From NCBI GenBank assembly GCA_902765855.1, contig CACXBF010000001.1, forward strand, positions 315,117-379,116: a stretch of DNA of 64,000 nucleotides, given 5' to 3'. A model generated the notes under the pieces. That model was given only the letters and a program-made list of their open reading frames with translations. It made no database searches and was not told where the DNA came from. This document shows, piece after piece, positions 2,820-8,537 of the stretch (the stretch's first letter is position 1; each line of letters begins with the position of its first letter). This DNA is from an uncultured Ruminococcus sp. (GTDB lineage Bacteria > Bacillota > Clostridia > Oscillospirales > Acutalibacteraceae). The translations under genes and the position numbers were made by a program.

Positions 2820-3446
2820 TTATTTGAAAATTTTTCGGATTTCTTTTTCAATAGCTGTGGCAAGTTTTTTGTGTTCGGCTGCGGTCATATGTTCGCAGTC
2901 TACCTCAGAGGCTACGGCGTAATTTTCCGCCGCAAGAAAATAACAATTCTTTTTCTTTGCGAGATTTTCAAATTTTGTTGCAAGCGAGTGTGATGTTTTT
3001 ACAGATTGTGCATTATATGTTGAATTTATTGAAAGAATGTTCTCTCTAAGCAGTATTGGGGAGATAAGTAATATCTGCAAAGAATTTGGATTTCCACAGG
3101 AAGAAATAGCTTTATCAATAAGCTTTCCGCAGTTTGCTGTGATTTTTTCTGCAGTCATTTTGTAAAAATATTTGAGGTCATTTGTGCCAAGCATAATTAT
3201 GAGTAAATCTATCGGAGAATTACTGCGAATAGAATTTTCTATGCTTTTTAGTCCGTTTCTGCCCGAAAACATAGGGTCATCAAGTGCAACTGTTCTTCCA
3301 CACACGCCGTCCTCGATTATTTTAAAATCATTTCCGAGCGATTTTGAAAGTAAGCCTGTCCAGCGAATGTTTTCGTTGAATTGCCCTGAACGGTCCGGCT
3401 TGTAGCCGTAAGTATTTGAATCTCCAAAGCAAAGTATATGCTTCAT
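2820..3446 (-). CDS. SGNH/GDSL-type hydrolase
   Basis: This 208-residue protein has the SGNH hydrolase blocks: GDSNTYGY at residues 7-14 (block I, catalytic Ser), GTNDLKYF near 87 (block III) and DCEHMTAAEH near 187 (block V, Asp-x-x-His). It resembles small cytoplasmic arylesterases or acyl hydrolases of the TesA/rhamnogalacturonan acetylesterase superfamily. No signal peptide is seen. Its ATG shares one base with the TGA stop of tyrA (TGATG), so it is translationally coupled. The substrate is unknown. A deacylase here and a deacetylase next to it may be coincidence. Confidence 0.82.
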   Translation of the reverse strand: MKHILCFGDSNTYGYKPDRSGQFNENIRWTGLLSKSLGNDFKIIEDGVCGRTVALDDPMFSGRNGLKSIENSIRSNSPIDLLIIMLGTNDLKYFYKMTAEKITANCGKLIDKAISSCGNPNSLQILLISPILLRENILSINSTYNAQSVKTSHSLATKFENLAKKKNCYFLAAENYAVASEVDCEHMTAAEHKKLATAIEKEIRKIFK

Positions 3447-4276
3447 CAGCCGTCAGTCCTCTCTTTTATATCTCTTGCTTTTGAGAGAAGTTCTGCAACT
3501 GCATCATTATTACCCTCTGCAACAGCGTTTCTTATGCTTGTTATATTTTCAATAAATTCATCAAGTTCACTTACAAGAGAATTTTTGTTTTCGGAGAAAA
3601 GCTCTGTCCAAAGTGGAACATTTATTCTTGCTACTCTTGATACATCACGATAGCTTCCCGCGGAAAAACCTTTATGATTTGTACAGCTTTCATTCAAAAC
3701 GTAAGCACAGGCAATAACATGAGGAAGCTGTGAAGTATAAGCTATCATTCGGTCGTGTTCTTCAGGTGTGGCAATCTTTATGATTCCAAAGCCGATTTTT
3801 TTCATAAGTGCGGAAACGAAGGTTATGTCCTTTTCATCAGCACCGCAAGGCACTATTATGTAGCTGGCATTTTGGAACAAATCAGCGTCAGAGGAGGCAA
3901 AGCCGTTTGTTTCCTTGCCTGCCATAGGGTGACCACCGATAAATTTAAAGCCGTATTCTTTTGAAAGCTGAACAAGTTCGGGGCATATCTGACCTTTAAT
4001 TCCTGATGTATCGGTGACTATACAGGATTTCGGGATAATATCGGCATTATCACGCACGAACTTTACAGCAGCTTCTGGGAAAGTTCCGAGTATAATCATA
4101 TCAGCAGCTTTGATGGATTCTCTTGTGCCAATTTCGTGTATTGCACCGCAGGCAAGAGCATCTTGCAGAGGTTTTTCGCTTCGATTTATGCCGATTATAT
4201 GGTGGTCAGTGTATTTTGCCAAAGCCTTAGCAAAAGAACCGCCTATTATTCCAAGTCCTGATATGATGATATTCAT
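3446..4276 (-). CDS. tyrA: Prephenate dehydrogenase
   Basis: The 276-residue enzyme starts with a Rossmann NAD(P)-binding loop (GLGIIGGSFAKAL, residues 7-19). It carries GGHPMAGKE near 114, the TyrA substrate-site motif with the catalytic His, and SQLPHVIACAY near 183. It oxidatively decarboxylates prephenate to 4-hydroxyphenylpyruvate, the last committed step to tyrosine. There is no fused chorismate mutase and no C-terminal ACT domain, so feedback control probably rests on AroF and on the operon attenuator. Start: ATG with GGAGTGA upstream. It lies in one operon with aroF. Confidence 0.93.
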   Translation of the reverse strand: MNIIISGLGIIGGSFAKALAKYTDHHIIGINRSEKPLQDALACGAIHEIGTRESIKAADMIILGTFPEAAVKFVRDNADIIPKSCIVTDTSGIKGQICPELVQLSKEYGFKFIGGHPMAGKETNGFASSDADLFQNASYIIVPCGADEKDITFVSALMKKIGFGIIKIATPEEHDRMIAYTSQLPHVIACAYVLNESCTNHKGFSAGSYRDVSRVARINVPLWTELFSENKNSLVSELDEFIENITSIRNAVAEGNNDAVAELLSKARDIKERTDG

Positions 4277-4300: not shown

Positions 4301-4774
4301 TTATTTTTGATAAAATACAAGCGTTAGTTTATCGTTTATTATCTTAGTTTTTCCTGTAGTTCGATAACCCATCTTTTCATATAAATGGCAGTTTCCCTTT
4401 TCCTGTATAATTGTGTCAAGTTCCCAATTTTTACTGCCATGGATTTTCTCGGCAAGTATAATTGCTTTTTGAGCAATACCCATATTGCGAAATTTAGGTA
4501 ATATAAATATAGGACTTATTCTCTTTCGGTTATTATTTCCTGAATCAACCACACGCACTGCACCAACAGTTTGTTTATCAAGCTGTATCATATAAAAGTA
4601 TGTTTCCGGCTGTTTTAATCTGAATATTGTCTTTTCAAGCGGTTCTGCCGTAGGACTTGTTTCAAAATCCTGATATTTTTCAAAAAGCTTTGCAAAGGCT
4701 TCTTTTTGCATATGCCAGATTTTTGGGGCATCGGCAAGTGAAGCTCTTACTAAGCATATATCAGAATTATTCAA
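4301..4774 (-). CDS. GNAT-family N-acetyltransferase
   Basis: This 157-residue GNAT-fold protein shows FILPKFRNMGIAQKAI (about 93-108) as the acetyl-CoA pyrophosphate loop (motif A), then LDTIIQEKGNCHLYEKMGY as motif B. The acceptor cannot be predicted. The start is TTG (4774-4772), overlapping the end of aroF, with GAGG 9 nt upstream inside aroF. Translation is therefore coupled to aroF. It is the middle gene of the aromatic operon. Confidence 0.8.
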   Translation of the reverse strand: MNNSDICLVRASLADAPKIWHMQKEAFAKLFEKYQDFETSPTAEPLEKTIFRLKQPETYFYMIQLDKQTVGAVRVVDSGNNNRKRISPIFILPKFRNMGIAQKAIILAEKIHGSKNWELDTIIQEKGNCHLYEKMGYRTTGKTKIINDKLTLVFYQK

Positions 4775-5792
4775 TAGTCATAGCCTCATCATAAGCTTTT
4801 TTCATAGCGAATACACGCTTTGCGACTAAATCGAACTGCTCAGGTGTAAGTGATTGAGCGCCATCAGAAAGTGCGTGAGGTGGGTCATTGTGTACTTCAA
4901 TCATCAAGCCGTCTGCTCCTGCTGCAACTGCTGCCATAGCAAGTGGTTCTACGAGCCAAGATTTTCCTGAAGCGTGGCTTGGGTCAACGATAATAGGAAG
5001 ATGTGTAAGCTTTCTCAAGACAGGAACAGCGGAAATATCAAGTGTGTTTCTTGTTGCGTTTTCATATGTGCGGATACCTCTTTCGCAGAGAATAACCTTA
5101 TCGTTGCCGCCTGCCATAATATACTCGGCACTCATAAGAAATTCCTCGATTGTTGCCGCAAGTCCTCTTTTGAGAAGTATAGGCTTATCAATTTTGCCAA
5201 GTTCTTTGAGAAGCTCAAAATTCTGCATATTTCTCGCACCGACTTGAATTATATCGACATTCTCAAACATATCAATATGAGAAACTCGCATAATCTCTGT
5301 TACAATCGGTAGGCCTGTTACTCGTCTTGCCTCTTTGAGGAGGTCAAGTCCCTCTGCCTTTAAGCCCTGGAAAGCATATGGAGAGGTTCTCGGCTTGAAT
5401 GCTCCGCCACGCAGGAAAGTTGCACCTGATTTCTTGACCTTTTCTGCGATACCGTTGAGTTGTTCTTCGCTCTCAACAGAGCAAGGACCTGCCATAATAC
5501 AAAGGCTGCCATCACCGATTTTTTGTCCTCCGTCGAATGAAATTACTGTATTATCCGGGTGGAATTTTCTATTGGCTTTTTTATATGGCTCCTGGACACG
5601 CTTTACATTTTCGACTATATCTTGCGCGGAAATGTAGTCGATGTCAATTTTGGTTGTGTCGCCAATTAAGCCGAGAACGGTGGATTCGACACCTGTCCAT
5701 TCATTAACCTTAACGCCGTATTCCTGCTCAAGCTTATTTTTGAACAGAAGGGAATCTTCCTTTGTAGCTGTGCTTTTAAGTACTATAATCAT
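4767..5792 (-). CDS. aroF: 3-deoxy-7-phosphoheptulonate (DAHP) synthase, AroF/type I-beta
   Basis: The enzyme condenses phosphoenolpyruvate and erythrose 4-phosphate, the first step of the shikimate pathway. Residues 1-70 form the ferredoxin-like regulatory domain known from the Tyr/Phe-inhibited Thermotoga-type enzymes. The barrel follows, with AGPCSVES near 100, GGAFKPRTSPYAFQG near 128, KRGL near 205, and DPSHASGK near 270. Length is 341 residues from the chosen ATG at 5792-5790, which has AGGAAAG 6 nt upstream. An in-frame TTG 18 nt earlier would overlap that ribosome binding site and is less likely. As first enzyme it is the natural target of the Tyr/Phe-rich leader upstream. Confidence 0.95.
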   Translation of the reverse strand: MIIVLKSTATKEDSLLFKNKLEQEYGVKVNEWTGVESTVLGLIGDTTKIDIDYISAQDIVENVKRVQEPYKKANRKFHPDNTVISFDGGQKIGDGSLCIMAGPCSVESEEQLNGIAEKVKKSGATFLRGGAFKPRTSPYAFQGLKAEGLDLLKEARRVTGLPIVTEIMRVSHIDMFENVDIIQVGARNMQNFELLKELGKIDKPILLKRGLAATIEEFLMSAEYIMAGGNDKVILCERGIRTYENATRNTLDISAVPVLRKLTHLPIIVDPSHASGKSWLVEPLAMAAVAAGADGLMIEVHNDPPHALSDGAQSLTPEQFDLVAKRVFAMKKAYDEAMTIE

Positions 5793-5814: not shown

Positions 5815-6777
5815 TCAATTTATATTTTTTGATTTAAGAATGTTTTCTTCATTTTTAATTACATTTGGCTTGAAAATTATATTATCTCTGTCTTTCAAGA
5901 ATTGCTCAAAAGCTATTTTTAAGCCGTCTGTGAATGGGGTTTCCTGTGAATAAATCTCGTTAATCTTGCTTACATCAAGAACATTATCGTAATCAAAGAA
6001 CGGGAAGAAATCACGAGCTGAATAAGAATCCGACTTATAATCAAAGCAAACTGTTTTCGCCTTCCTGCCTATTGAATCTGCACAGGATTGTATCCATTCG
6101 TTTACAGTTACAGGCTTTTTGTTACCTACATTAAAAATATTTGTGCCATGTAAGTCAGATTCGATAAGCGTTTTGATTATATTTGCAAGGTCGCCTGAAT
6201 AGATAAACTGTAATTTAGTTTCTCCATTATTTGGGACAATAATCGGTTTATCTTTTAGAAGATGTTCAAAGATAAATGATTCTCGCTGTGCATAATTGTT
6301 TTCGCCGTAAACATACGGTGGTCTTAATATAAACAGATTTGTGCCGACTTTATCAAAGTTTTTTATCAGATAAATTTCGGCTTCAATTTTATTTGTGCCG
6401 TAGTCTTTCCAATATTTATTTTCCGCAAGGGAATCATTCTCACTGAAAGGAATATTCAAATGCTCAACATCGTAAACCGCACTTGAGCTTATAAATACAA
6501 ATGATTTTATGCTTTCAAGGCTAAGGCTTTCACAAAGAATTTTGCTTTGTTCTGCATTTGTACCGCTGACATCAATTACAAAGTCGAAATGTTTTTCTGA
6601 GAGAGCGATTTTCATAGCTTTGGAATCGTTTCTGTCGCAGATTATCGTTTCGACATTTTCACTTTTGGGTTTTGTACCACGATTAAGAACAGTTACTGAA
6701 TATTCTTTTGAGAGAATATCTGCAATTTTCTTTCCGATGAAATAACTTCCACCCATAAGTAAAACTCTTTTATTCAT
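5815..6777 (-). CDS. NAD-dependent epimerase/dehydratase (extended SDR), first gene of the aromatic operon
   Basis: This 320-residue protein opens with the Rossmann loop GGSYFIGKKIADIL (about 9-22). It has SSSAVYDVEH and a YGENNYAQR-type region, as in extended short-chain dehydrogenases acting on nucleotide sugars. The N-terminus 'VLLMGGSYFIGKKIA...VLNRG' also resembles the CSP41-like branch, whose members have lost typical epimerase activity, so the reaction is uncertain. Start: ATG 6777-6775 with AAGGAAA 6 nt upstream. A longer in-frame extension lacks a ribosome binding site and would run into the attenuator. The gene lies 22 nt upstream of aroF and directly behind the attenuator terminator. 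Confidence 0.85.
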   Translation of the reverse strand: MNKRVLLMGGSYFIGKKIADILSKEYSVTVLNRGTKPKSENVETIICDRNDSKAMKIALSEKHFDFVIDVSGTNAEQSKILCESLSLESIKSFVFISSSAVYDVEHLNIPFSENDSLAENKYWKDYGTNKIEAEIYLIKNFDKVGTNLFILRPPYVYGENNYAQRESFIFEHLLKDKPIIVPNNGETKLQFIYSGDLANIIKTLIESDLHGTNIFNVGNKKPVTVNEWIQSCADSIGRKAKTVCFDYKSDSYSARDFFPFFDYDNVLDVSKINEIYSQETPFTDGLKIAFEQFLKDRDNIIFKPNVIKNEENILKSKNIN

Positions 6778-6850
6778 AGGAACTTTCCTTTCATAAATAT
6801 TTTGGCGAATTTTGTTTTTTAGTATAAGCCGGCAATAATACTTCAAAAAC

Positions 6851-6881
6851 AAAAAGGACAAAGCCCGAAAGAGCTTTGTCC
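6851..6881 (-). terminator. Attenuator terminator of the aromatic operon
   Basis: A 9-bp perfect stem (minus strand GGACAAAGC at 6881-6873 with GCTTTGTCC at 6864-6856) is followed by TTTTTG and more T's. It lies between the leader peptide stop (6914) and the first structural gene (6777). Its 5' arm and loop can instead pair with 6926-6941 (GACAA with TTGTC, CTTTCGG with CCGAAAAG), giving a mutually exclusive antiterminator. Confidence 0.88.
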
Positions 6882-6913
6882 TGAAAATTCACCTTATTGA
6901 GAAAACATAGAGT

Positions 6914-7018
6914 TTAAGGCTTTTCGACAACACTTTTCGGCACAGCAAAATAAACCGTATTAAAATAACGGTGATAATAATAGCTGTTAAATCGCATTGT
7001 GTAAGCCGAGAATGTCAT
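6914..7018 (-). CDS. Tyr/Phe-rich leader peptide (34 residues) of the aromatic attenuator
   Basis: This small gene starts at ATG 7018-7016 with a strong AGGAGGA 9 nt upstream and stops at TAA 6916-6914. The product has 6 Tyr and 4 Phe among 34 residues, concentrated in SYYYHRYFNTVYF (residues 12-24). The Tyr cluster lies just upstream of the antiterminator 5' arm (6926-6941). A ribosome stalled for charged tRNA-Tyr or tRNA-Phe would leave that arm free to pair. A ribosome reaching the stop would cover it and let the terminator form. This is the classic trp/phe-type attenuator design. It regulates the epimerase-aroF-GNAT-tyrA operon behind it. The peptide itself needs no function. Confidence 0.88.
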   Translation of the reverse strand: MTFSAYTMRFNSYYYHRYFNTVYFAVPKSVVEKP

Positions 7019-7050
7019 TCAGACTTTCCTCCTTTTTCCTCTATGGATTA

Positions 7051-7079
7051 ACAATAACATATTTATTTTTTGTTGTCAA
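7051..7079 (-). promoter_or_regulatory. Sigma-A-type promoter of the aromatic operon
   Basis: On the minus strand TTGACA (7079-7074) is followed after 17 nt by TATTGT (7056-7051). This places the transcript start about 12 nt before the leader ribosome binding site, so the leader peptide lies at the very 5' end of the mRNA as an attenuator needs. Confidence 0.8.
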
Positions 7080-7171
7080 GGTGAAATTTTATTATTTATT
7101 ACAAAGTGAAATAGCTATTTTAAAATGACAAAATTCATCTTTTTATGAAAATGAATATACTTTTACTTTTG

Positions 7172-7200
7172 TTGACGGTTCAAAAATGGTATGATATAAT
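7172..7200 (+). promoter_or_regulatory. Sigma-A-type promoter of the DUF6270-like gene
   Basis: TTGACG (7172-7177), 17-nt spacer, TATAAT (7195-7200), about 33 nt before the start codon. It diverges from the attenuator promoter. Confidence 0.85.
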
Positions 7201-7232
7201 ATTTGTGAAATGTTATACAGGAGGATTTATTT

Positions 7233-8537
7233 ATGCCAGAAAATCTATTTACGGCAGATAAAAATATAAGTATCAGTATTCTTGGTACTTGCATAAGCAG
7301 AGATATTTTTGGTATGCAGAAAAATGATGGCGGATATAAAATTGACCGCTTTATTCAATCTATAAGTCCAATTTCAGCAGTAACAGAAAGTATGTTGATA
7401 AAAAATATAGAAGAGAATTATAATCAAATTGATATGATTTTTTCTGATTTGAGTAATTTTTATAAGAGAGTTCTTATATCAGATTTAAAAAAGAATGTCT
7501 TTGAATATATGTCAGAAATACATTCTGATTATTTACTTATTGATGCGGGAACTATGAGATATAACTTAGTTAAGTATATAGAAAATAATAATATTGAATT
7601 TTTATCAATCGTATTTCCTAAAAAGATAAAATTATTAAAGGAAAATGGATTTATTCCAAATGATACTACAACAATAACTTTAGATGATATAAGTGACGAA
7701 GAATTTAATGAATATATGGACCGATATATAAATGAAATGTTGAAAATTTATACAGTGGATAGAATAATTCTGCTGGAATGTGAACCGGCTTTACTTTACT
7801 TGAAAAAGGACAAGACATATATAGATACATTTCAATATGATACGATTTTTTCTTGGAAAAAAAATATCGATAAGGGATATCGTTATTTGAGGAAAAAATT
7901 ATCAGGGTGCCATATAATTGAATTTCCTGACGGAATTATAGCTGATGAAAATCATAAATGGGGTAGGTCGTCGTTACATTATGTCAGAGAATATTATGAC
8001 TACGCTTTTGAAGCTATAAAACAAATTACTTATAGCGGATTGACATATGCTGAGGAACGAAATGTATTATGCGAATTAAAAGAGAAATGCGAAGATTTAG
8101 TTAAAAATCGTTACGGATATAATTTTGCTCGTACTTTTCGTTATTATGATAGTCGCAATAATTTATGTTTAAGAATGACAAGCTATGAAAAATATATGAA
8201 AGAGCTTGTACTAGATGAAAATAAAATATATAGGGTTAAAAAGTTTTTTCAAAAAAATAAATATAAGCATTGTGCGTTTTACGGATTTGGCGAAATCAGC
8301 AAATTATATATTCCGTTTTTTAAAAAATGGGGAATAAGTGTTGATTATATTATAGAAGAAACAAATCGCATTGAATATGAAGGTATTCCGATTATTAAAA
8401 AAAGAATGAATAAATATCCTGATGTGCAGGTTATGATAATTGCTGATATTGTAGCGGCTGACCAAGTAAAAGAAAGATTGGAAAAAATGGGATTGACATA
8501 TCCTGTTTTAGATGCTTATGAAATATTTAACGGCTAA
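7233..8537 (+). CDS. DUF6270-like protein with an added C-terminal domain
   Basis: The first 300 residues start with ISILGTCISRDIFG (about 11-24), the pattern I associate with DUF6270, a family of unknown function seen near polysaccharide and glycosyl-transfer genes. The serine/cysteine-rich nucleophile-like loop and a later HYVREYYDYA resemble an SGNH-like layout, but this is only a resemblance. Residues about 340-434 form a separate domain starting CAFYGFGEISKLYIPFF, like the dinucleotide-type GxGExxxxY loop of small Rossmann domains that end some surface-glycan enzymes. It has no signal peptide or membrane helix. Start: ATG with AGGAGG 8 nt upstream and its own promoter. AT content is higher than in its neighbours. 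The function is unknown. Confidence 0.6.
   Translation: MPENLFTADKNISISILGTCISRDIFGMQKNDGGYKIDRFIQSISPISAVTESMLIKNIEENYNQIDMIFSDLSNFYKRVLISDLKKNVFEYMSEIHSDYLLIDAGTMRYNLVKYIENNNIEFLSIVFPKKIKLLKENGFIPNDTTTITLDDISDEEFNEYMDRYINEMLKIYTVDRIILLECEPALLYLKKDKTYIDTFQYDTIFSWKKNIDKGYRYLRKKLSGCHIIEFPDGIIADENHKWGRSSLHYVREYYDYAFEAIKQITYSGLTYAEERNVLCELKEKCEDLVKNRYGYNFARTFRYYDSRNNLCLRMTSYEKYMKELVLDENKIYRVKKFFQKNKYKHCAFYGFGEISKLYIPFFKKWGISVDYIIEETNRIEYEGIPIIKKRMNKYPDVQVMIIADIVAADQVKERLEKMGLTYPVLDAYEIFNG

Follow-up and report, generated by a model that had tools for sequence, protein, structure and literature searches.

We describe a probable ribosome-mediated transcription attenuator ahead of the epimerase-aroF-GNAT-tyrA operon of an uncultured Ruminococcus, in a window of 64,000 nucleotides (the whole stretch of DNA that was analysed). 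With a probability that we put at roughly 0.88, the availability of charged tRNA-Tyr and tRNA-Phe controls the operon. A predicted switch of the same kind precedes aroF in dozens of related bacteria.

The first-pass annotation of this DNA had proposed a 34-residue open reading frame (ORF) rich in Tyr and Phe on the minus strand, with a ribosome-binding site and a consensus promoter just upstream, and all of these are present (Table 1). The ORF encodes MTFSAYTMRFNSYYYHRYFNTVYFAVPKSVVEKP; a recount returns the six Tyr and four Phe, and the aromatic cluster claimed for residues 12-24 indeed holds seven of these ten. The ribosome-binding site is strong, with GGAGG placed 9 nt 5' of the ATG, and the promoter matches the consensus at 10 of 12 positions. 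Transcription would start at about 7044, a position taken from the -10 element.

Table 1. Features of the leader and of the operon behind it, in positions of the window.
Feature	Position	Strand	Details
Promoter TTGACA-17-TATTGT, TG ahead of -10	7051..7079	-	sigma-70 type
Ribosome-binding site AAAGGAGGAAAG	7024..7035	-	
Leader peptide ORF	6914..7018	-	34 codons, 6 Tyr + 4 Phe; 94 distinct leaders precede aroF
Region 1 (CACAATGCGATTTAACAGC), partner of region 2	6983..7001	-	predicted by folding; duplex -13.3 kcal/mol
CGA-TTT (Arg-Phe) codon pair, near-invariant	6989..6994	-	in 84 of 94 leaders, in frame in 82
Hairpin P1 inside the ORF (ACCGU..ACGGU), Tyr-Phe codons in loop	6954..6972	-	predicted by folding; covarying helix in relatives
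Region 2	6926..6946	-	antiterminator strand 6941-6926
Intrinsic terminator stem-loop, regions 3 + 4 (region 3 = 5' arm)	6855..6882	-	12 pairs
Terminator U-tract TTTTGTTTTT	6845..6854	-	
NAD-dependent epimerase/dehydratase family gene, first behind terminator	5815..6777	-	PF01370
aroF-type DAHP synthase, second gene	4767..5792	-	TIGR01361
GNAT acetyltransferase	4301..4774	-	
tyrA, prephenate dehydrogenase, fourth gene	3446..4276	-	PF02153, PF20463

Behind the ORF, the terminator that had been placed at 6881-6851 was found as a stem (6882-6855) plus U-tract; it is the single terminator-like site within 6500-7500 (shuffled sequences: mean 0.3, sd 0.6), and its hairpin (3:4) has an energy of -18.3 kcal/mol. 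The alternative partner claimed for its 5' arm, inside the last codons of the leader, was recovered as well: 6941-6926 can pair with the arm and loop (6880-6865) at -16.2 kcal/mol, a bare-duplex value that excludes the loop cost. To this anatomy we add hairpin P1, which sits between regions 1 and 2. As a whole, the 199-nt leader RNA has a more stable fold than any of its 200 dinucleotide shuffles (z -3.28). The features expected of an amino acid attenuator are thus found together, namely a leader ORF (presumably translated) with promoter and ribosome-binding site, conserved codons for the operon's end product, an intrinsic terminator between leader ORF and operon, and an antiterminator that is mutually exclusive with the terminator and coevolves with it.

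In the mechanism that we infer, comprising translation of the leader, stalling, read-through and a response to two amino acids, RNA polymerase would start near 7044 with a ribosome trailing on the leader ORF. When Tyr- or Phe-tRNA is scarce, the ribosome would wait on the Tyr/Phe codons and cover region 1 and P1; region 2 could then pair with region 3, so that no terminator would form and the operon would be transcribed. When both tRNAs are plentiful, the ribosome would reach the stop codon and cover part of region 2, allowing the 3:4 terminator to form. Without any translation, 1:2 could form and termination would follow. As the leader intermingles codons for Tyr and Phe, running short of either amino acid should open the operon; a single T-box reads one tRNA.

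The comparison with relatives started from an AroF search in 398 genomes of the window's family, which gave a match in 254. Upstream regions were taken from the 30 best loci, 59 further loci in order of score and 80 named loci, yielding 169 regions. The first 89 regions stem from genomes without names and are the best-scoring AroF matches in order (three loci near contig ends were skipped, and L182 was too short); among the named records, uncultured Ruminococcus, Ruminococcaceae, Oscillospiraceae, Clostridiales and Clostridia predominate, next to a few isolates. The collections overlap, and 156 regions are distinct by the last 230 bases ahead of aroF. Leaders were called by a finder, tuned on the first examples, that looks for a short ORF, a ribosome-binding site, a terminator and a Phe/Tyr preceded by Gln, Asn or a basic residue, and that requires at least four F/Y/W within the first 36 residues.

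A leader with terminator was found in 105 of the 169 aroF upstream regions (duplicates counted), which is a lower bound because L176, L181, L193, L195 and L060 bear leaders or leader-like ORFs too. Dropping L059, which is no leader, and L157, for which the wrong frame had been picked, reduced the 96 distinct cases to 94; L157 does carry a good leader, in another frame than the finder's pick. The 75 nt ahead of the start contain a promoter of the window's type in 64 of the 94 leaders, whereas the same search in control windows further upstream gave 1/94, 0/89, 0/88 and 0/87.

Under a mechanical ORF rule, a gene ends at most 140 nt ahead of aroF in 42 of 64 leaderless regions, but also in 22 of 105 leader-bearing ones. 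In the three such leaderless loci that were inspected further (L096, L082 and L114), aroE and an aroK-like gene for shikimate kinase stand ahead of aroF, and tyrA comes next; in L047, aroF stands behind trpA. A covariance-model search of the 47 leaderless named loci returned no true copy of the leader except the cut-off L060 (68.6 bits), the next best being 22.9 bits (L067, directly ahead of aroF). Behind aroF, tyrA was found in 15 of 28 leader-bearing named loci (those of 33 with at least 1.2 kb there) versus 40 of 43 leaderless ones with the same length, and the leader is therefore not tied to tyrA as such.

The codon content of the leaders is biased in frame. In the best 14-codon window of the 94 leaders, Phe and Tyr make up 44% in frame versus 11% and 21% in the other frames, a figure inflated by the finder's demand for at least four F/Y/W and by a choice of window that favours aromatics too. 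Leaders were therefore also called by a rule that considers nothing but promoter, ribosome-binding site and start codon. Across the 156 distinct regions this gave 91 leaders, 73 of which share their start with the earlier calls; over the whole ORF they hold 21.4% F+Y in frame versus 9.6% and 14.4%, and F+Y reaches at least 20% in 49 of the 91 in frame versus 6 and 11 in the other frames. Homologous leaders lacking Tyr/Phe enrichment had been named beforehand as evidence that would speak against attenuation; the enrichment is kept, also without the residue rule. Among the 94 rule-called leaders, the core residues include both Phe and Tyr in 89 and Phe only in five, and 19 also have Trp.

Covariation supports the three predicted helices (first stem, P1 and terminator). 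The MAFFT alignment A1 holds 81 sequences, omitting from the 94 L125, L179, L147 and ten leaders without CGATTT. In A1, 82.4% of the helix cells pair versus 38.6-47.0% when the helices are slid, and double-sided changes occur at 22 of 24 pairs, with 290 such cells versus 100.6 (sd 16.0) after shuffling. The first stem and P1 are weaker (74.0% and 74.2% of cells paired), and the alignment does not bring all groups into register; in the P1 covariation alignment the window's own row is shifted by one column.

Predicted duplex energies further indicate that region 2 coevolves with region 1 as well as with the terminator arm. When partners were swapped among leaders, native 2:3 duplexes averaged -11.95 versus -10.83 kcal/mol and native 1:2 duplexes -12.90 versus -11.06 kcal/mol, with 0 of 20000 permutations as good in either case. 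On 54 dissimilar representatives the counts were 1 (2:3) and 0 (1:2) of 20000; these p-values overstate independence because the leaders share ancestry. Per sequence the effect is modest, with a median native rank of 0.34-0.36 for 2:3 and 0.29-0.31 for 1:2. A lack of compensatory changes in the alternative stems, the other outcome that the first-pass annotation had held to be damaging, is not what the leaders display: such changes are abundant, and native 1:2 and 2:3 beat swapped partners.

These data also bear on the suggestion that the terminator merely ends a stray short transcript, that the ORF arose by chance and that the operon is transcribed from elsewhere. T-rich DNA readily yields Phe and Tyr codons, and a 34-codon ORF by itself is no evidence; yet promoter, ORF, hairpins and terminator recur ahead of aroF in many relatives, the pairings coevolve and the in-frame enrichment survives without the residue rule, which leaves this explanation scarcely credible.

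In the proposed mechanism, the position of the ribosome would decide the fold. We modelled this with truncated transcripts of the 94 leaders, each with 12 shuffles and 12 synonymous shuffles. With the ribosome on the core aromatic codons, region 3 was paired upstream at 0.72 versus 0.60 in shuffled and 0.63 in synonymously shuffled controls (Wilcoxon 9e-10 and 5e-8); with the ribosome at the stop the values were 0.33 versus 0.40 and 0.37, and without a ribosome the mean over the 94 leaders was 0.49. As the shuffled controls themselves go from 0.60 to 0.40, about half or more of the contrast between stall and stop is positional and the rest comes from the sequence; stalling exceeds stop by more than 0.2 in just 69 of the 94. 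For the window, the model gives 0.62 on the Tyr/Phe codons up to F24 and 0.07 at the stop. Without a ribosome it gives 0.55, although 1:2 pairs and coevolves, so that a protective role of 1:2 is not visible there in equilibrium folding. The earlier proposal of ribosome-mediated attenuation of a Tyr/Phe operon is supported by anatomy, in-frame enrichment, covariation and the swap test, with stalling and read-through in vivo as its predicted consequences.

Another RNA switch (a T-box or a ligand riboswitch), with the ORF incidental, might be imagined in its place, as alternative structures and a terminator are common to such switches. No Rfam family, amino acid leader families included, matched the window at gathering score, the best sub-threshold matches being His_leader (18.6 of 49 bits) and Thr_leader (13.1 of 55). 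At the same score, 20 relatives' loci, mostly chosen as leaderless, gave one tRNA and nothing else, and eight leader-bearing loci searched up to an E of 1 gave three sub-threshold matches, all to unrelated families. The genome's own T-boxes stand elsewhere: eight score above the cut-off, ahead of tyrS, trpE, pheS, cysS, leuA, thrS, an ilvA-type threonine ammonia-lyase gene and an acetolactate synthase large subunit gene. None of the eight precedes aroF-tyrA, and the T-box covariance model has no match at the aroF-tyrA leader. A T-box or other known riboswitch at this leader was accordingly rejected, and a different RNA switch of any kind seems very improbable. In this genome, pheA directly follows aroC, with no leader between them.

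The near-invariance of the codon pair CGA-UUU (Arg-Phe) is the unexpected part of the predicted leader. At the Arg-Phe site, 80 of 87 Arg codons are CGA; at other sites of the leaders the count is 22 of 240, and in 19 aroF genes of relatives, which are not a matched sample, it is 3 of 283. The 102 CGA codons of the leaders are followed by TTT in 91 and by TTC in none, so that Phe after CGA is UUU in 91 of 91 cases. Within A1 the invariance of CGATTT is a product of leaving out the ten leaders without it. A further in-frame copy sits inside P1 in eight leaders; in six of these, CG closes the stem and the loop begins with AUUU, and in L178 and L185 the arrangement is shifted by one. Base pairing explains CGA-UUU only partly, because no stretch of region 1 is paired less than UUU: its mean pairing probabilities are 0.24-0.38, those of C, G and A 0.61-0.74. 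The A of CGA finds its partner in 32 of the 81 sequences of A1.

This conservation also helps to weigh nascent-peptide arrest, in which a conserved peptide would stall the ribosome from within the exit tunnel and free Tyr or Phe would be sensed as ligand, on the model of TnaC, where peptide arrest senses Trp. Many relatives indeed share the peptide R-F-T-G-F-x-Y-P-R-Y-F, and parts of it are conserved within one group. Arg-Phe, however, is conserved as nucleotides, the core varies by group (MRFNSYYYHRYF, ARFSGYFF, KKGYYYYGGRYYYAVF) with its Phe/Tyr richness kept, and two genomes from within the genus (L002 and L003) already disagree at the C-terminal end. A peptide motif as the main constraint is weakened by the nucleotide-level conservation of CGATTT, and we regard arrest as improbable.

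Under attenuation by charged tRNA supply, the codon pair could have a role of its own. CGA and UUU are both read by wobble, and an Arg-tRNA that pairs poorly in the P site may therefore sharpen the sensitivity of the next Phe codon to Phe-tRNA. It is a tentative idea, and one that we would not favour on present evidence, that CGA-UUU is a dedicated sensitiser; the leader would then be an OR gate for two amino acids, with its trigger tuned. Alternatively, it may be an RNA-level pause or binding motif. A NusG-type TTNTTT pause motif after P1 was considered and dropped: it occurs there in 14 of 81 sequences versus 3.5 on average in 200 shuffles, whose highest count was 8, and is not specific to that place because 31 of 81 have it in the columns just before.

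The reach of the leader was explored with R1, a covariance model built from A1. The window's element scores 72.2 bits, by construction since its sequence helped build R1, and at most 16.5 bits are reached elsewhere in the genome. An order-wide search of 295 genomes found a match at E 0.01 or better in 89. Of 17 loci inspected, four in other families of the order (L225, L226, L230 and L231) show a leader before a confirmed aroF, with peptides such as MFTANKKGYYYYGGRYYYAVFSSC; L227 is a same-family aroF match, and 11 look like plain terminators or show nothing. In L229 (genome G408), the match at about 1620-1730 of the reversed locus has a promoter and a terminator ahead of a gene, and no clear leader ORF. 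The leaders of L226 and L231, from another family, are almost purely Tyr-rich (YYYY..YYY) and lack CGATTT; lineages may therefore differ in the amino acid that is sensed. In L230 (59-1324, minus strand), the DAHP synthase frame of 422 codons matches its family in two stretches, which suggests an insertion of about 80 residues. The idea that the element also governs a second operon was rejected, as nine extra same-family matches (part of the extra matches, judged by eye) resemble leaderless ordinary terminators.

As to the operon itself, the genes behind the terminator run epimerase, aroF, GNAT and tyrA; the place of the epimerase gene adds to the earlier description, and in the window's genus this gene separates the leader from aroF. 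Its counterpart in the sister genome G002 (L004:1024-1479) has about 151 codons versus 320 and appears internally shortened. On the plus strand, a promoter-like site at 7172-7200 (11 of 12 matches) is directed at a divergent DUF6270 gene (7233-8537), and two transcripts may start back to back from it and from the leader promoter.

Ribosome-mediated attenuation is familiar from the proteobacterial trp, phe and his leaders, with cognate codons, regions 1-4 and a terminator. The leader described here resembles these in its cognate-codon peptide, its 1:2, 2:3 and 3:4 pairings and its terminator before a biosynthetic operon. It differs from them in its mixed Tyr and Phe codons, the aroF-tyrA operon, CGA-UUU and its clostridial host, and it stays below the cut-off of every Rfam leader family.

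The mechanism is already known, with precedents at aroF itself in Corynebacterium and Acholeplasma. For Corynebacterium glutamicum, a transcriptome study mentions a putative attenuator leader peptide with Phe-Tyr-Phe before aroF (PMC4046766); the gene is the same and Phe and Tyr are shared, whereas the host is an actinobacterium and the likeness, for one leader, is by its description only. The uORFC-13-1 motif before aroF has a possible promoter, a ribosome-binding site, a uORF with Phe, an apparent terminator and an extra paired element, its 24 representatives coming only from Acholeplasma and unidentified environmental sequences (PMC8632094); its description, on which our comparison is based, speaks of at least one Phe codon and leaves Tyr codons unmentioned. 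Among Firmicutes, His attenuators are described from the Bacillus cereus group, Eubacteriales and Erysipelotrichales (17 genomes; PMC9413887); they are of the same leader-peptide type and serve histidine operons instead of aroF. The tyrosine operon of the B. cereus group is reported to have a T-box (PMC2494555).

The first-pass annotation had contrasted this leader with the T-box or protein-based control that is usual in Firmicutes. The contrast with T-boxes holds within this genome, whereas the word "unusual" needs qualification, given the leader-peptide attenuators described from Firmicutes (PMC9413887, PMC8632094). No aroF attenuator of Ruminococcaceae or Oscillospiraceae turned up in the literature searched, which included little subscription content, so that this absence is weak; within the searchable literature, the family of leaders appears new.

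The finding suggests how entry into the shikimate pathway is controlled in a large group of gut and rumen clostridia. One and the same genome has T-boxes at tyrS, pheS and trpE, yet a leader peptide at aroF-tyrA; that a mixed-codon leader can answer two amino acids at once is a testable reason for this choice. The CGA-UUU pair, in turn, poses a concrete and testable question on codon context in attenuation.
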